A DNA stretch of 64,000 bases from Haloplasma contractile SSD-17B. GTDB taxonomy: Bacteria; Bacillota_I; Bacilli_A; Haloplasmatales; Haloplasmataceae. The position numbers were made by a program, and so were the translations under genes. Shown here one piece after another: positions 1,172 through 16,300 of the stretch; the stretch's first letter is position 1; each line of letters begins with the position of its first letter. The stretch spans positions 434,001 to 498,000 of the forward strand of contig NZ_AFNU02000001.1 of the NCBI RefSeq assembly GCF_000215935.2, written 5' to 3'. The notes beneath the pieces are model-generated. The model was not told the DNA's origin and did not search any database. It was given only the letters and a program-made list of their open reading frames with translations.

Positions 1172-2119
1172 ATGAATAAAACAGCACTAAGTATCATGAT
1201 GGTAGTTTACTTATACAATCGAGATTTAGTAAAAAAAAGTGAATTAGCAGAATATCTAGAAGTTAGTGAACGTAAAATTATTGACCTTAGAACTGAACTT
1301 GAGGTAGCAGGTATTGACATTGAAACGATCCCCGGAAAAAACGGCGGTTATAGACTGAATAGCAAGAGTACTGTTTTATCTGCACTAAGTTTAAGTGATG
1401 AGGAATTTAATGCATTATTTATGGCTAGAGAACAATTGAAGAGTGATAATTTCATCTATCAAAAAACATTAAATCAACTTATAGAAAAAGTGGAAGCCAC
1501 GCATCACGCAAAAGACTCCCACACGAATTATCAATTTATTAAATCACTAAAGCGAAATCGGATGATTACAAAGGAAAAAGAATGGTTTAAACGGATTAAA
1601 AAGGCAATCGATGAGCAAAATAAAGTTATCATCTATTATAAAAATAGTAAGGCAGAAATTAAGAAGTATTATGCAAATCCCTATGATTTATTTTACTACA
1701 AGGGATTTTGGTATATGATTTCTTACAACGCAAAATATAATAAAGGTTACAACTATAAATTAGTAAGAATACAAGATATAGAGATTTTAAGTCAACAATT
1801 TGAACGACATGCCAACTTTAAACTGCAAAATTTCGTTGGTGAGACTTCTATATTTAGTGATGAAGAATACCAGATTAAACTTCATATAGAACCTCCACTG
1901 TCAGTTATTGTATCTGAGATGGTAATTGCAAAGAATCAAGAAATCTTAGAACTAGAAGATGGTTCAATTATATTTGATGGTAAAATGGAAGGTAAACTTG
2001 AAATTATATCATGGCTCCTAAGTCTTGGATCTAGCGTTAATGTATTAGAACCACAAGTTATAAAACGGGCTTATGAAAGTGAAGTCAAACGATTAATTGA
2101 TAAGTATACGACGCATTAA
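1172..2119 (+). CDS. WYL-domain HTH transcriptional regulator
   Basis: 315 residues. The N-terminal 60 residues form a DeoR-type winged helix ([32 protein letters not shown], followed by the wing GKNGGYRL). A WYL sensory domain follows around residues 140-215, with [21 protein letters not shown] and [12 protein letters not shown]-like C-terminal part ends in a regulator-typical segment, [18 protein letters not shown] regulators sense nucleic-acid-related or other ligands; the target here is unknown. ATG 1172 is used because GGGTGG at 1161-1166 is its ribosome site. The stop codon overlaps that of the convergent sigK by 4 bases. Confidence 0.85.
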
Positions 2120-2799
2120 CGTGAAGATAACATGCGATATAACTTCATTAATGCTCTTTTTTCAATGCGGGATACATAACTACGAGAAATATTAAGAGAT
2201 TCGGCAATCTCACGCTGTGTTTCTGGTGGTCGATTTGCGAGACCAAAACGTCTTGTAATGATTTGTAATTCACGTTCTGTTAATTCGGGGAGTATTTCAT
2301 TTAACTTTTCAACTTTTTCCCCAAAAAGAACACGTTCTTCAACTGATTTATTATCATCTTTTAAAATATCAATTAAAGTAATCTTATTTCCTTCTTTGTC
2401 AAACCCAATAGGGTCATGAAGTGAGGTAACATTTCTGTTTTTCTTGTTCATTCTTAATTGCATTAATATTTCGTTTTCAATACATCTAGCTGCATAAGTT
2501 GCTAGTTTTGTACCTTTTTTATCGTTATACGAGTCAATGGCCTTTATTAATCCAATGGTACCGATTGACAATAAGTCTTCTTTATCCTCCGATGTATTTT
2601 CATATTTTTTTACAATATGGGCAACAAGTCGAAGGTTGTGCTCGATCAATAAATTACGAGCATCAAAGTCGCCCGAATACATCCGGTTTAGTAGTTCTCT
2701 TTCTTGATCACTTGTAAGTGTTTCAGGAAATGTTTTTGAACGTACTGAACCGATGAAAGGTAATAACTTTAATAAACTAGCTATAATAACTTCTAACAT
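2116..2799 (-). CDS. sigK: RNA polymerase sporulation sigma factor SigK
   Basis: 227 residues in one uninterrupted frame. SigK directs late mother-cell transcription for cortex and coat. A hydrophobic N-terminus ([17 protein letters not shown]) resembles the inhibitory pro-sequence that SpoIVFB removes in B. subtilis. Region 2 follows ([49 protein letters not shown]). The linker [10 protein letters not shown] and the region 4 helix-turn-helix ([28 protein letters not shown]) are close to SigK. The start is ATG 2799, with GGGGTGTG at 2803-2810 as Shine-Dalgarno; the GTG at 2805 lies inside that site. Unlike B. subtilis, no skin-type element splits the gene. SpoIVB, which triggers pro-SigK processing, is also in the window. 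Confidence 0.93.
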
Positions 2800-6790: not shown

Positions 6791-6861
6791 TATGAACGTC
6801 CACTTTGTTAAAAATATAAATGTGGCCACGGAACACATCATATTTTCAAGAGGAGGACAAT

Positions 6862-8274
6862 ATGAGTCACGAAATGGGAAAAGGAAAAGAGAGAAGAAGA
6901 AGTCAATTAAATGGGAATACTACAGGACAAACTAGAGCACAAACAATGAAGCAAAATAATGGACAGTATGATTATGAATTTGGACAAGGTCAAGGAAGCA
7001 ATATGGGTAAAAAAGAAACGCGTGAAAAGAACATACAGAATCCTATGACTCCAAACGGAAATAAAGTAAACAAATCTCCTTATAAAAATAAGTATCAATA
7101 TGAATTTAGTAGCGAACCTGTAGCCGGTGCAGGACAGCGAATCACAAACAGAAGAACAAATCAAAAGATCAGTGACCAAGCAAACTTAAAAACAGATCGT
7201 TATGATTTAGAATTTGGTGAAGATAGTAGCTTAAAAGGAACAGGTATGGTACCACAGCGAAATACGACTACTCAAAATGTAAATAATAAAGCGGATCTAA
7301 AAACAGACCGTTATGATTATGAATTTGCTACAGATAGTAGTCTAAGAGGAACTGGTCAAAAAGCTAGAAGACAAGGTACTATGACAAATTCTAAAACAGA
7401 AGAAGGATCTAGAGCACGACAACGTCAAAATATAACTACAAGCGCTGATCAATATAAGTATGAGTTTGGTACAGGAGGTTCTGATTTACAACAAATAGCA
7501 AGACAAACGAAACAAAACTATAAGCAGGCAGAAAATCAATTCAATCAAACACATAACAACTATAATGAAGAGTTTGGTGCAGGAAACAAGAACGCATCAA
7601 AATATCAAACGTCAACAGCAAATTATGATGCAGCAAATCGTTACAAAGAAGAGTATGGTAGAGAAACACTAGCACAAGGATATGGACAATCTTCAGGATA
7701 TATGCAAAAGCAAAATAGGGGTTTGATGAAAAGTAGCTTACCCAGAAACAATTATAACGAAGAATTTGGACAAGATTCTAATGGTGCTAGAACAAATCAA
7801 AATTTAGCAAATAGAAAATCTAAGGTAAGAACGCCTGCATATGGGGAGTCATATAATTATGACCAAATATCATCTACATATAAAAGAAGTGAAGCAAGGC
7901 CAAGTTATAATGTAGAGTTTGGTAGAGACAACAATACAGTAAACGATAAAGGTATATCAAAAAAAGCGAATGAAATGGCTAATCGATATACAGAAGAATA
8001 TGGATTAGAGGGACCAGAAGCAAATCCTCGTACCTTAAAAGAAAAAATGCAATCAGATGAATATGTAGGTAAATCTCAAAGAGGTTTATATAATACCAAT
8101 AAAAAGTATAAGGCAGAGTTTGCTGATGCGTCTCCACACAGTATGTTTACAGCAGGAAAACAAGTAGCAGCTGAGAAATTTAAACAAAAATTCCAAGATA
8201 ATTTACAACAAAACTATAACGTAGAAATTGCGAAAGAAAATATAATAAAAAAGGATGATAATGATGAGAAATAA
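6862..8274 (+). CDS. Large gamma-type SASP-like repeat protein with twelve Gpr-like sites
   Basis: 470 residues, rich in Gln, Asn, Lys and Arg, with no membrane segment and almost no hydrophobic core. An aromatic-x-x-Glu-aromatic-Gly/Ala motif repeats twelve times; Glu is at residues 39, 81, 117, 154, 201, 237, 264, 301, 352, 379, 419 and 455 (for example YDYEFG, YNEEFG, YKAEFA, YNVEIA). Spore protease Gpr cleaves SASPs between Glu and Phe or Ile in TEFASE- or YEIA-like contexts. The protein therefore looks like an outsized gamma-type (SspE-like) SASP, a forespore amino-acid store released on germination. Gamma SASPs are usually about 60-100 residues with two or three sites, so the size is odd. 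ATG 6862 has AGGAGG at 6851-6856. The gene overlaps the start of the next SASP-like gene. Function is inferred from motifs and the nearby gpr gene. Confidence 0.7.
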   Translation: MSHEMGKGKERRRSQLNGNTTGQTRAQTMKQNNGQYDYEFGQGQGSNMGKKETREKNIQNPMTPNGNKVNKSPYKNKYQYEFSSEPVAGAGQRITNRRTNQKISDQANLKTDRYDLEFGEDSSLKGTGMVPQRNTTTQNVNNKADLKTDRYDYEFATDSSLRGTGQKARRQGTMTNSKTEEGSRARQRQNITTSADQYKYEFGTGGSDLQQIARQTKQNYKQAENQFNQTHNNYNEEFGAGNKNASKYQTSTANYDAANRYKEEYGRETLAQGYGQSSGYMQKQNRGLMKSSLPRNNYNEEFGQDSNGARTNQNLANRKSKVRTPAYGESYNYDQISSTYKRSEARPSYNVEFGRDNNTVNDKGISKKANEMANRYTEEYGLEGPEANPRTLKEKMQSDEYVGKSQRGLYNTNKKYKAEFADASPHSMFTAGKQVAAEKFKQKFQDNLQQNYNVEIAKENIIKKDDNDEK

Positions 8275-8767
8275 CAACGATCGACCAAAGCTCAACAGAA
8301 AATCAGACCTTGAACAAGAGAGTAGACAATACAATCAAGAATTCGCAAGAGCTAATGCTACTATTAGAAATCAAAATCCATACGATCAAGAATTTGCTGT
8401 TGAGACAGAAGGTACGTTAAGAAATACACGTAACGCAAATACAAGAGATCAAGATGCAGAAACAGAAAGTATGATAAGAAATACACGTAACGCAAATACA
8501 AGAGGACGTAGACAAGATGATGCTTTAAATTTAGAATTTGCGAAAGATAATGATTTCAAAAATTTAAAGCGTGACAAAGATAATGTTGAATTCGCTAAAG
8601 ACAATGACTTTAAAAAGTTAGATAAAAAAGACAATGTTGAATTCGCTAAAGACAATGACTTTAAGAAGTTAGATAAAAAAGACAACGTTGAATTTGCAAA
8701 CGACAATAACTTCGAAGATTGTGATGATTGTGACGATTGCAAAGAAGACGATTGTGATTGTGAATAA
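8264..8767 (+). CDS. Gamma-type SASP-like protein with Cys-Asp tail
   Basis: 167 residues. Six EFA sites are present: YNQEFA, YDQEFA, LNLEFA and three DNVEFA. They have the glutamate-phenylalanine-alanine context that Gpr cuts in gamma SASPs, and this protein is closer to a classical SspE type than its upstream neighbour. The middle and end hold tandem repeats of 19 and 17 residues. The last 20 residues are an acidic cysteine-rich tail with repeated DCDDC, unusual for a SASP. ATG 8264 fits AAGGA at 8251-8255; ATGs at 8255 and 8261 are possible. The gene overlaps the preceding SASP-like gene by 11 bases, so the two are coupled. A long hairpin follows. Confidence 0.75.
   Translation: MRNNNDRPKLNRKSDLEQESRQYNQEFARANATIRNQNPYDQEFAVETEGTLRNTRNANTRDQDAETESMIRNTRNANTRGRRQDDALNLEFAKDNDFKNLKRDKDNVEFAKDNDFKKLDKKDNVEFAKDNDFKKLDKKDNVEFANDNNFEDCDDCDDCKEDDCDCE
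8419..8713 (+). repeat. Tandem coding repeats in the second SASP-like gene
   Basis: Two families lie in one gene. A 57-base period covers 8419-8504, with the shared block coding RNTRNANTR twice. A 51-base period covers 8579-8713: two full units coding DNVEFAKDNDFKKLDKK, then a partial third with changed bases. The 51-base units differ by very few bases, which suggests recent duplication. Confidence 0.9.
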
Positions 8768-14601: not shown

Positions 14602-15642
14602 ATGGACAAGATAAAAGTAAGAACAGATTTGATTATAGAAAGCCTTGAAGCATCAGGTGATACCATTCATATGAACGAGTTACAGCACACAGAAGAGCTG
14701 GTTCATGGAATGAAAATAAATCAAGTTATTATTAATGATGAACATGGAAGAGAAATAGGAAAACGAGCAGGAACATATGTAACGATTGATACATCAGCTG
14801 TTAATGACCATGATCATGAACAATTATTAAAAATACAAAAACAAATTGCAATAGAAATTGACAAACTCCTTACTAAAAATCAAATTACTGAGGATTCAGT
14901 CGGAATGATCGTCGGATTAGGAAATGATAACGTTACACCTGATTCTTTAGGACCAAATGTGATTGAACAGGTTTTTGTTACAAAGCACTTATTTGAACTA
15001 CACCCTGAATCAATTGATCCTAAAGGGTTTAGACCAGTTTGTGCTATGGCACCAGGTGTAATGGGAATGACAGGTATTGAAACAGCAGAAATCATTGACT
15101 CTGTAATTGACCGTATAAAACCTGATTTTGTTATTGTGGTCGATGCCTTGGCTGCAAAATCAATCAAACGCGTTAATACAACGATTCAATTATCGGATGC
15201 AGGAATTAATCCCGGTAGTGGTGTAGGAAATAAGCGTAAGGAATTAAGTAAGGCAACTTTAGATATTCCTGTTGTGACAATTGGTATACCTACTGTAGTA
15301 GATGCAGTGACGATTACATCTGAGACGATTGATATGATTATCAAACATATTGGGCATAGTTTGAAGAACAATCGTCCTAGTAATCGACTTGTTACGTCAG
15401 CTACTCCAAATAAGGTTGATTTTTCAGAACAAGATGTACCAGATGAAAATGTGGTAAGAGATCTGTTTGGAAATATCGGATTAATGTCAGTTGAAGAAAA
15501 AGAACGATTAATTTTTGAAGTTTTAACACCACAAGGGCTAAATATGATGGTTACCCCAAAAGAAGTCGACACAAATATCGTAGACCTAAGTCATATCGTA
15601 GCAAGAGGTATAAACTTAGCTCTACATAAAAATATTAACTAG
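14602..15642 (+). CDS. gpr: Germination (spore) protease Gpr
   Basis: 346 residues. Gpr (peptidase family A25) degrades SASPs when the spore germinates. Family blocks are clear: GLGNDNVTPDSLGP, APGVMGMTGIETAE, VIVVDALAAKSIKRVNTTIQ, LSDAGINPGSGVGNKRKELS, VVTIGIPTVVDAVTI and MVTPKEVDTNI. The zymogen is normally activated by removal of an N-terminal propeptide of 15-16 residues at a TD-L site. Here the same site (VRTD-LI) sits after residue 9, so the propeptide is short. The start is fixed by GAGGTGAT eight bases upstream and an in-frame stop before it. Likely substrates are the two SASP-like proteins at 6862-8767. A hairpin follows. Confidence 0.97.
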   Translation: MDKIKVRTDLIIESLEASGDTIHMNELQHTEELVHGMKINQVIINDEHGREIGKRAGTYVTIDTSAVNDHDHEQLLKIQKQIAIEIDKLLTKNQITEDSVGMIVGLGNDNVTPDSLGPNVIEQVFVTKHLFELHPESIDPKGFRPVCAMAPGVMGMTGIETAEIIDSVIDRIKPDFVIVVDALAAKSIKRVNTTIQLSDAGINPGSGVGNKRKELSKATLDIPVVTIGIPTVVDAVTITSETIDMIIKHIGHSLKNNRPSNRLVTSATPNKVDFSEQDVPDENVVRDLFGNIGLMSVEEKERLIFEVLTPQGLNMMVTPKEVDTNIVDLSHIVARGINLALHKNIN

Positions 15643-15716: not shown

Positions 15717-15971
15717 TTGTTAATTGGTATAAAAGCACTTGTTATATTGGTTTGTCTAGTAATATCATTTTCTTACTTAGAACCGAATATAGAACTTTAT
15801 TTCTTAAATCATGAATTTGACAGTCTTGTTTTCTTTTTAAATGATGTCCACACTGAAGACAATCTACTTAATGAACTCTTTGACTTTATGGTCTATTTAG
15901 TATTTGGTGTGAACCTAGAGGAACCTGATTCCATGTTTTCGTTTAATTCATTTTTAAGAAGTTTACTATAA
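15717..15971 (+). CDS. SpoIIP-like N-terminal fragment without the amidase domain
   Basis: 84 residues from TTG 15717. One N-terminal membrane segment (LIGIKALVILVCLVISFSYL) is followed by an acidic extracytoplasmic part containing FGVNLEEPDSMFSFNSFL. From memory this resembles the SINLEDPRSFL segment that ends the N-terminal region of B. subtilis SpoIIP. The locus is exactly that of spoIIP (gpr-spoIIP-yqxA-lepA). The whole amidase/endopeptidase domain, about 220 residues, is missing, and yqxA starts 17 bases after the stop. SpoIIP degrades septal peptidoglycan during engulfment with SpoIID and SpoIIM. TTG 15717 is 19 bases from AGAGGTG; an ATT codon at 15702 or 15705 has the right spacing and may be the true start. 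It could be a remnant or a minimal SpoIIM partner. Confidence 0.55.
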   Translation: MLIGIKALVILVCLVISFSYLEPNIELYFLNHEFDSLVFFLNDVHTEDNLLNELFDFMVYLVFGVNLEEPDSMFSFNSFLRSLL

Positions 15972-15988
15972 TGTAAGGAGATGATTTG

Positions 15989-16300
15989 ATGGAACGGAAA
16001 TTTGTGCGATATTTAATGATTGGTATCATTTTTTTCATTGGTCTTTCGATGGGAACCTCTTTTAGTCCAACAAATTCAGCAAAAGATGTTCAAGAAAAAG
16101 CAAAAGAATTTGAAGATGATATTACAAACCCAGATACGGATTTTGAACCAGTAAATCCCTATGAAAATCAAACCGGTGAACCTATAAAACATAATTTTTA
16201 TACATCACTAGCTAAAGATGGAGAGTACCTCGTAAAAAAGACCGTTGAATTTGTTTTTGAGAAGAGTGACGACCTTTTAAGAATTATTTTTGATTCATAA
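15989..16300 (+). CDS. yqxA: YqxA (DUF3679)-like membrane-anchored protein
   Basis: 103 residues. A short basic N-terminus and one membrane segment (RYLMIGIIFFIGLSMGTSF) are followed by an acidic extracytoplasmic stretch and an amphipathic C-terminus (NFYTSLAKDGEYLVKKTVEFVFEK). The size, layout and position between spoIIP and lepA match YqxA of Bacillus, whose function is unknown; the similarity is weak. ATG 15989 follows AAGGAG; a TTG one codon earlier is less likely. A terminator follows. Confidence 0.6.
   Translation: MERKFVRYLMIGIIFFIGLSMGTSFSPTNSAKDVQEKAKEFEDDITNPDTDFEPVNPYENQTGEPIKHNFYTSLAKDGEYLVKKTVEFVFEKSDDLLRIIFDS

Follow-up and report, generated by a model that had tools for sequence, protein, structure and literature searches.

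Two overlapping genes of Haloplasma contractile with repeated Gpr-like cleavage motifs, probably encoding gamma-SASP-like stores outside the gamma-SASP family

Two adjacent Haloplasma contractile genes, here called ORF1 and ORF2, code for proteins in which a Gpr-like cleavage motif recurs many times; both lie in the 64,000-nucleotide stretch of DNA that was analysed (the window). We consider it likely that these are forespore proteins of the sigma-G type that are expanded from one ancestral gene and act as stores cut by Gpr in the manner of gamma-SASPs. They probably work like gamma-SASPs, without being assignable to that family.

Gene organization and sequence motifs

ORF1 and ORF2 (Table 1) are placed between a methyltransferase gene (yqeM) and comEA, and the annotated neighbours confirm this location, which had been proposed in a preliminary description of the DNA; the gene order is rsfS, yqeM, the two ORFs, comEA, comEC, holA, rpsT, gpr and lepA. 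The two frames overlap by 11 nt (8264–8274) and an AAGGA sequence precedes ORF2, so coupled translation is plausible. The gpr gene is 5.8 kb downstream, in agreement with the distance of about 6 kb noted earlier, but the order comEC-holA-rpsT-gpr-lepA is usual in the group and is also present in the relatives as far as these are assembled; because it is ancestral and inherited, the nearness of gpr carries no weight for function. We also note that the gap between gpr and lepA (window 15717–16300) contains two short frames (84 and 104 aa) with no Pfam match, and that there are similar ones in relatives; in B. subtilis this place is occupied by spoIIP, which may be reduced or located elsewhere.

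Table 1. Features of the ORF1–ORF2 region (window positions, except where loci of relatives are named)
Feature	Position	Strand	Description or basis
ORF1	6862..8274	+	470-aa predicted disordered protein, 12 Gpr-like sites, C-terminus homologous to relatives' small orthologues
ORF2	8264..8767	+	167-aa acidic protein, six EFA sites, Cys-rich acidic tail as in most orthologues
-35-like box ATATAA, SASP-type (sigma-G-like) putative promoter	6814..6819	+	best site of two-box matrix from family alpha/beta-SASP upstreams
-10-like box CACATCATA of ORF1	6834..6842	+	same matrix
Ribosome-binding site of ORF1, GAGGAGG	6850..6856	+	sequence
Shine-Dalgarno-like AAGGA of ORF2, within ORF1	8251..8255	+	sequence
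51-bp tandem repeat, 3.4 copies, coding the DNVEFAKDNDFKKLDKK units of ORF2	8534..8712	+	repeat analysis
gpr, germination protease, presumed to act on the sites in trans	14602..15642	+	TIGR01441 351 bits, PF03418 415.5 bits
sigK, uninterrupted, few kb upstream	2116-2796	-	TIGR02846 over cut-off
TGAGCGCTCA palindrome upstream of orthologues	L034 4547; L035 5214; L037 4534; L038 4758; L036 1602		

As first described, ORF1 contains 12 motifs of the form aromatic-x-x-E-(F/Y/I)-(G/A/S), at residues 39, 81, 117, 154, 201, 237, 264, 301, 352, 379, 419 and 455, with gaps of 27–51 residues (mean ~38) and a tyrosine at position −3 in all 12. Composition shuffling (n=5000) yields a mean of 0.08 and a maximum of two, and every other open frame of at least 100 aa in the window (68 frames) has at most one. 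The six EFA motifs of ORF2 likewise exceed its composition shuffles (mean 0.13, maximum two), and the earlier figure of 18 Gpr-like motifs over both genes therefore stands as a count; the aromatic context does not hold throughout, as only two of the six in ORF2 have an aromatic residue at −3 (YNQEFA and YDQEFA), and the others are LNLEFA (once) and DNVEFA (three times). The DNVEFA copies are inside the 51-bp tandem repeat, which is recent.

Both proteins lack Trp and are poor in hydrophobic residues, with GRAVY values of −1.5 (ORF1) and −1.7 (ORF2); ORF1 is basic (pI 9.5) with 6.4% Tyr and no Cys, and ORF2 has a pI of 4.7. AlphaFold gives mean pLDDT values of 48 and 51, respectively, and both are predicted to be disordered, although the runs used single sequences, so that low pLDDT argues only weakly for disorder. 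Composition and predicted disorder are compatible with an abundant acid-soluble protein of the spore core that is not bound to DNA.

Orthologues in the Haloplasmataceae

A syntenic orthologue is present in five of seven relatives, these being all five in which the yqeM-comEA interval is assembled (G001, G003, G004, G006 and G007); no such interval was recovered from the assemblies of G002, where the contig carrying gpr starts within comEC, and of G005, which is 85% complete. Each of the five intervals has exactly one small gene, coding for 89–157 aa with 2–5 E-(F/Y/I)-(G/A/S) motifs, and the pI of the products spans 4.5–9.4. A block like SPLARGANIANAFS is present in all five, and a KYQENLRQNYNVEFSDDE block plus a Cys-rich acidic end in four. 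Among four of the orthologues dN/dS is 0.16–0.36, indicating that these are selected proteins, under purifying selection. The orthologues share homology with the C-terminus of ORF1 (profile E 2.2e-8; hhalign 94.7%); the ORF2 match is confined to NVEF and the Cys tail (hhalign 35.5%), and its orthology is therefore likely but weak. ORF1 is best interpreted as an expansion specific to this lineage, with a predicted cut site approximately every 38 residues.

The Cys-rich acidic tail is of the CDNCENC type and is found at window positions 8720–8764 (ORF2) and at the ends of orthologues P0003–P0006. It is odd for a storage protein of the spore core, and a metal or thiol role is possible.

Searching genome contigs with the orthologue profile matched four named contigs, the nearest named carriers being a MAG labelled Haloplasma contractile, Inordinaticella fortuita 4B and an uncultured Haloplasmataceae bacterium; the same search with ORF1 alone gave no match. 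There is no convincing match to the profile outside the Haloplasmataceae in 395 genomes of the class or in a phylum-level sample of 392, two sets that have many genomes in common. Three weak class-level matches (G157, G223 and G226; E 0.004–0.008), of which two fall in frames of ~1180 aa, are attributed to chance; among solved structures, searched by sequence with the profile, only mTOR matched, at chance level.

To our knowledge, H. contractile has been described without spores. All eight family genomes encode full-length Gpr (PF03418), SpoIVA and 4–7 alpha/beta SASPs, which contain MKYEIANEFG, as well as a full-length sigma-G-like match beside a sigma-E-like gene, scoring 384–397 bits against the TIGR02850 cut-off of 457. 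Every relative that bears a homologue has the sporulation genes tested for, and the homologues are thus not restricted to non-sporing relatives; such a restriction had been listed in the preliminary description as contrary to its reading.

Upstream sequences

The alpha/beta-SASP genes of the family have in common an upstream GTATTA-N14/15-CACAWCCTATTARTGA followed by a ribosome-binding site. Upstream of ORF1 is ATATAA-N14-CACATCATA, at the SASP-gene distance from GAGGAGG; its −10-like box is identical to the −10 of the alpha/beta-SASP gene of one relative and equally distant from the ribosome-binding site, and its −35-like box is weaker than the SASP consensus. The window holds 13 matrix sites that are equal or better, and that of ORF1 alone precedes a ribosome-binding site. 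A first matrix that covered nine −10 positions did not recover the orthologues, which scored 1–5. With a SASP-trained matrix extended by the conserved TTARTGA, ORF1 scores 10.9 bits (p 0.003 against random 85-mers) and four of the five orthologues have p values of 0.002–0.014, three of these having CTATTAGTGA as in SASP promoters; the G007 orthologue has no SASP-type promoter score (p 0.2). Because the extension followed inspection of the sequences, making the resulting likeness somewhat optimistic, and because the orthologues are both mutually related and part of the gene-upstream background, we regard the promoter likeness as supporting but not decisive. It suggests that ORF1 and ORF2 may be expressed in the forespore.

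All five relatives have a conserved TGAGCGCTCA palindrome that closely follows the putative −10 and is possibly the site of a regulator. It is absent from the Haloplasma window, where GTGGCCAC (6822–6829) is nearby instead.

Tests of family membership

The gamma-SASP profile PF04259 (SASP_gamma) has no match in the Haloplasma genome or in the 395 class genomes. None of the gamma-SASP profiles matches ORF1, and the ORF2 comparison with TIGR01442 gives E 1.4 and 9.5 bits against a cut-off of 30.65; the orthologues have no gamma-SASP match, and Pfam and NCBIfam scans of them, like those of ORF1 and ORF2, produced nothing usable. PF00269 (alpha/beta SASP) matches neither ORF1 nor ORF2, its true members being elsewhere in the genome. 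Lengths of 470 and 167 aa, and of 89–157 aa in the orthologues, do not agree with the gamma-SASP size of less than ~100 aa; a repeated Gpr recognition sequence (aromatic-x-x-E-F-A) is present, with the 12 and six sites above shuffles. Since no profile reaches its cut-off and the size departs from that of the family, we do not file ORF1 and ORF2 as gamma-SASPs, and the profile search that the preliminary description had named as a check gave no support for membership. Vyas et al. 2011 is reportedly the key paper on gamma-SASP variability.

Proposed role and alternatives

Peptides of B. subtilis SspE contain QFGTEFASET, and thus an F-x-x-E-F-A context (PMC3003637), Gpr cuts alpha/beta SASPs at E-I-A, and gamma-SASPs have been hypothesised to serve as a reserve of amino acids during outgrowth (PMC8452069). 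Because the motifs described here match such Gpr contexts, and disorder and hydrophilicity fit, the most likely role is that of a store opened by Gpr, of which ORF1 is the expanded form. Late expression in the forespore from a sigma-G-type promoter would yield proteins that remain unfolded in the spore core; upon germination Gpr would cut them at Glu|Phe/Tyr/Ile-Gly/Ala/Ser, giving fragments of ~40 residues from ORF1 or ~20 from ORF2, which general peptidases could degrade to amino acids that support outgrowth. The yqeM-comEA interval of the Haloplasmataceae would have held an ancestral gene of 90–160 codons, which may have been duplicated or split in the Haloplasma lineage, and its expansion would have produced the 12-site polyprotein and the six-site protein. 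The gamma-SASP-like reading put forward earlier thus gains a putative SASP-type promoter, small syntenic orthologues, a genome with Gpr, alpha/beta SASPs and sigma factors of sporulation, predicted disorder and a storage-like composition, and loses family membership; against it count the missing profile link, the weak −35 box of ORF1, the G007 upstream region and the Cys-rich tail, which is foreign to gamma-SASPs.

The tyrosine content of ORF1, the repeats, the Cys-rich tail of ORF2 and most orthologues, and the presence of sigK in the same window would also suit a structural protein of the coat or inter-coat, made in the mother cell with Tyr-rich repeats and a cross-linking tail. We think this unlikely, as ORF1 has no Cys, its promoter resembles those of alpha/beta-SASP genes, and the E-F/Y-G/A core, which a coat role does not need, is conserved in every repeat. 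Being basic, ORF1 could bind nucleic acid instead, and with ORF2 as an acidic partner it might serve in the spore core as a protein that binds DNA or RNA until Gpr removes it at germination, nearer in role to the alpha/beta SASPs, whose promoter type and cut-site logic are alike; this seems a little less probable still, since there is no resemblance to the alpha/beta-SASP profile and the range of orthologue pI values shows that charge is not conserved. A vegetative low-complexity protein, phase-separating or metal-binding, whose E-F-G repeats have nothing to do with sporulation, would accord with the disorder, N/Q richness, Cys-rich acidic tail and position between housekeeping and competence genes, but is very improbable given the SASP-like promoter and an occurrence, among the genomes searched, only in a family with sporulation genes in all eight genomes.

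Within the preferred reading of a Gpr-opened store, we suggest tentatively, and with some doubt, that it evolved independently in the Haloplasmataceae, converging with the gamma-SASPs of Bacillales and reaching 12 sites here, and that its Cys tail serves a second function, for example metal or thiol storage.

Comparison with known systems

Gamma-SASPs (SspE; PF04259, TIGR01442) share with ORF1 and ORF2 a repeated F/Y-x-x-E-F-A/G context, a disordered, N/Q-rich sequence with no Trp, a forespore-type promoter (here a putative one, judged by sequence upstream of ORF1) and co-occurrence with Gpr and alpha/beta SASPs. They have fewer than 100 aa and about two sites, whereas ORF1 has 470 aa and 12, and the Haloplasma proteins have G as often as A at P2′ and Tyr instead of Phe at −3. 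Also unlike gamma-SASPs are the Cys-rich acidic tail of ORF2 and most orthologues, the conserved SPLARGANIANAFS and KYQENLRQNYNVEFSDDE blocks of the orthologues, the lack of a profile match at cut-off, and the host family, gamma-SASPs being reported only from Bacillales; one source places them in bacilli but not clostridia (PMC3533761), another in Bacillus alone (PMC7985256). What is new is the Haloplasmataceae lineage, the 470-residue 12-site form, and the Cys-rich acidic tail.

Such stores appear to be missed by profile searches, and gamma-SASPs may therefore have been wrongly called absent from other spore formers; with its 12 sites, ORF1 also offers a naturally occurring substrate on which Gpr specificity could be mapped. 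The alpha/beta SASPs (PF00269) occur in the same genomes as ORF1 and ORF2, with a similar promoter and a comparable Gpr site (YEIANE), but they differ in sequence and fold, are mostly 65–77 aa, have one site and bind DNA. That a separate spore-forming lineage follows the same cut-site logic points either to a far older origin, masked by rapid sequence change, or to convergence.
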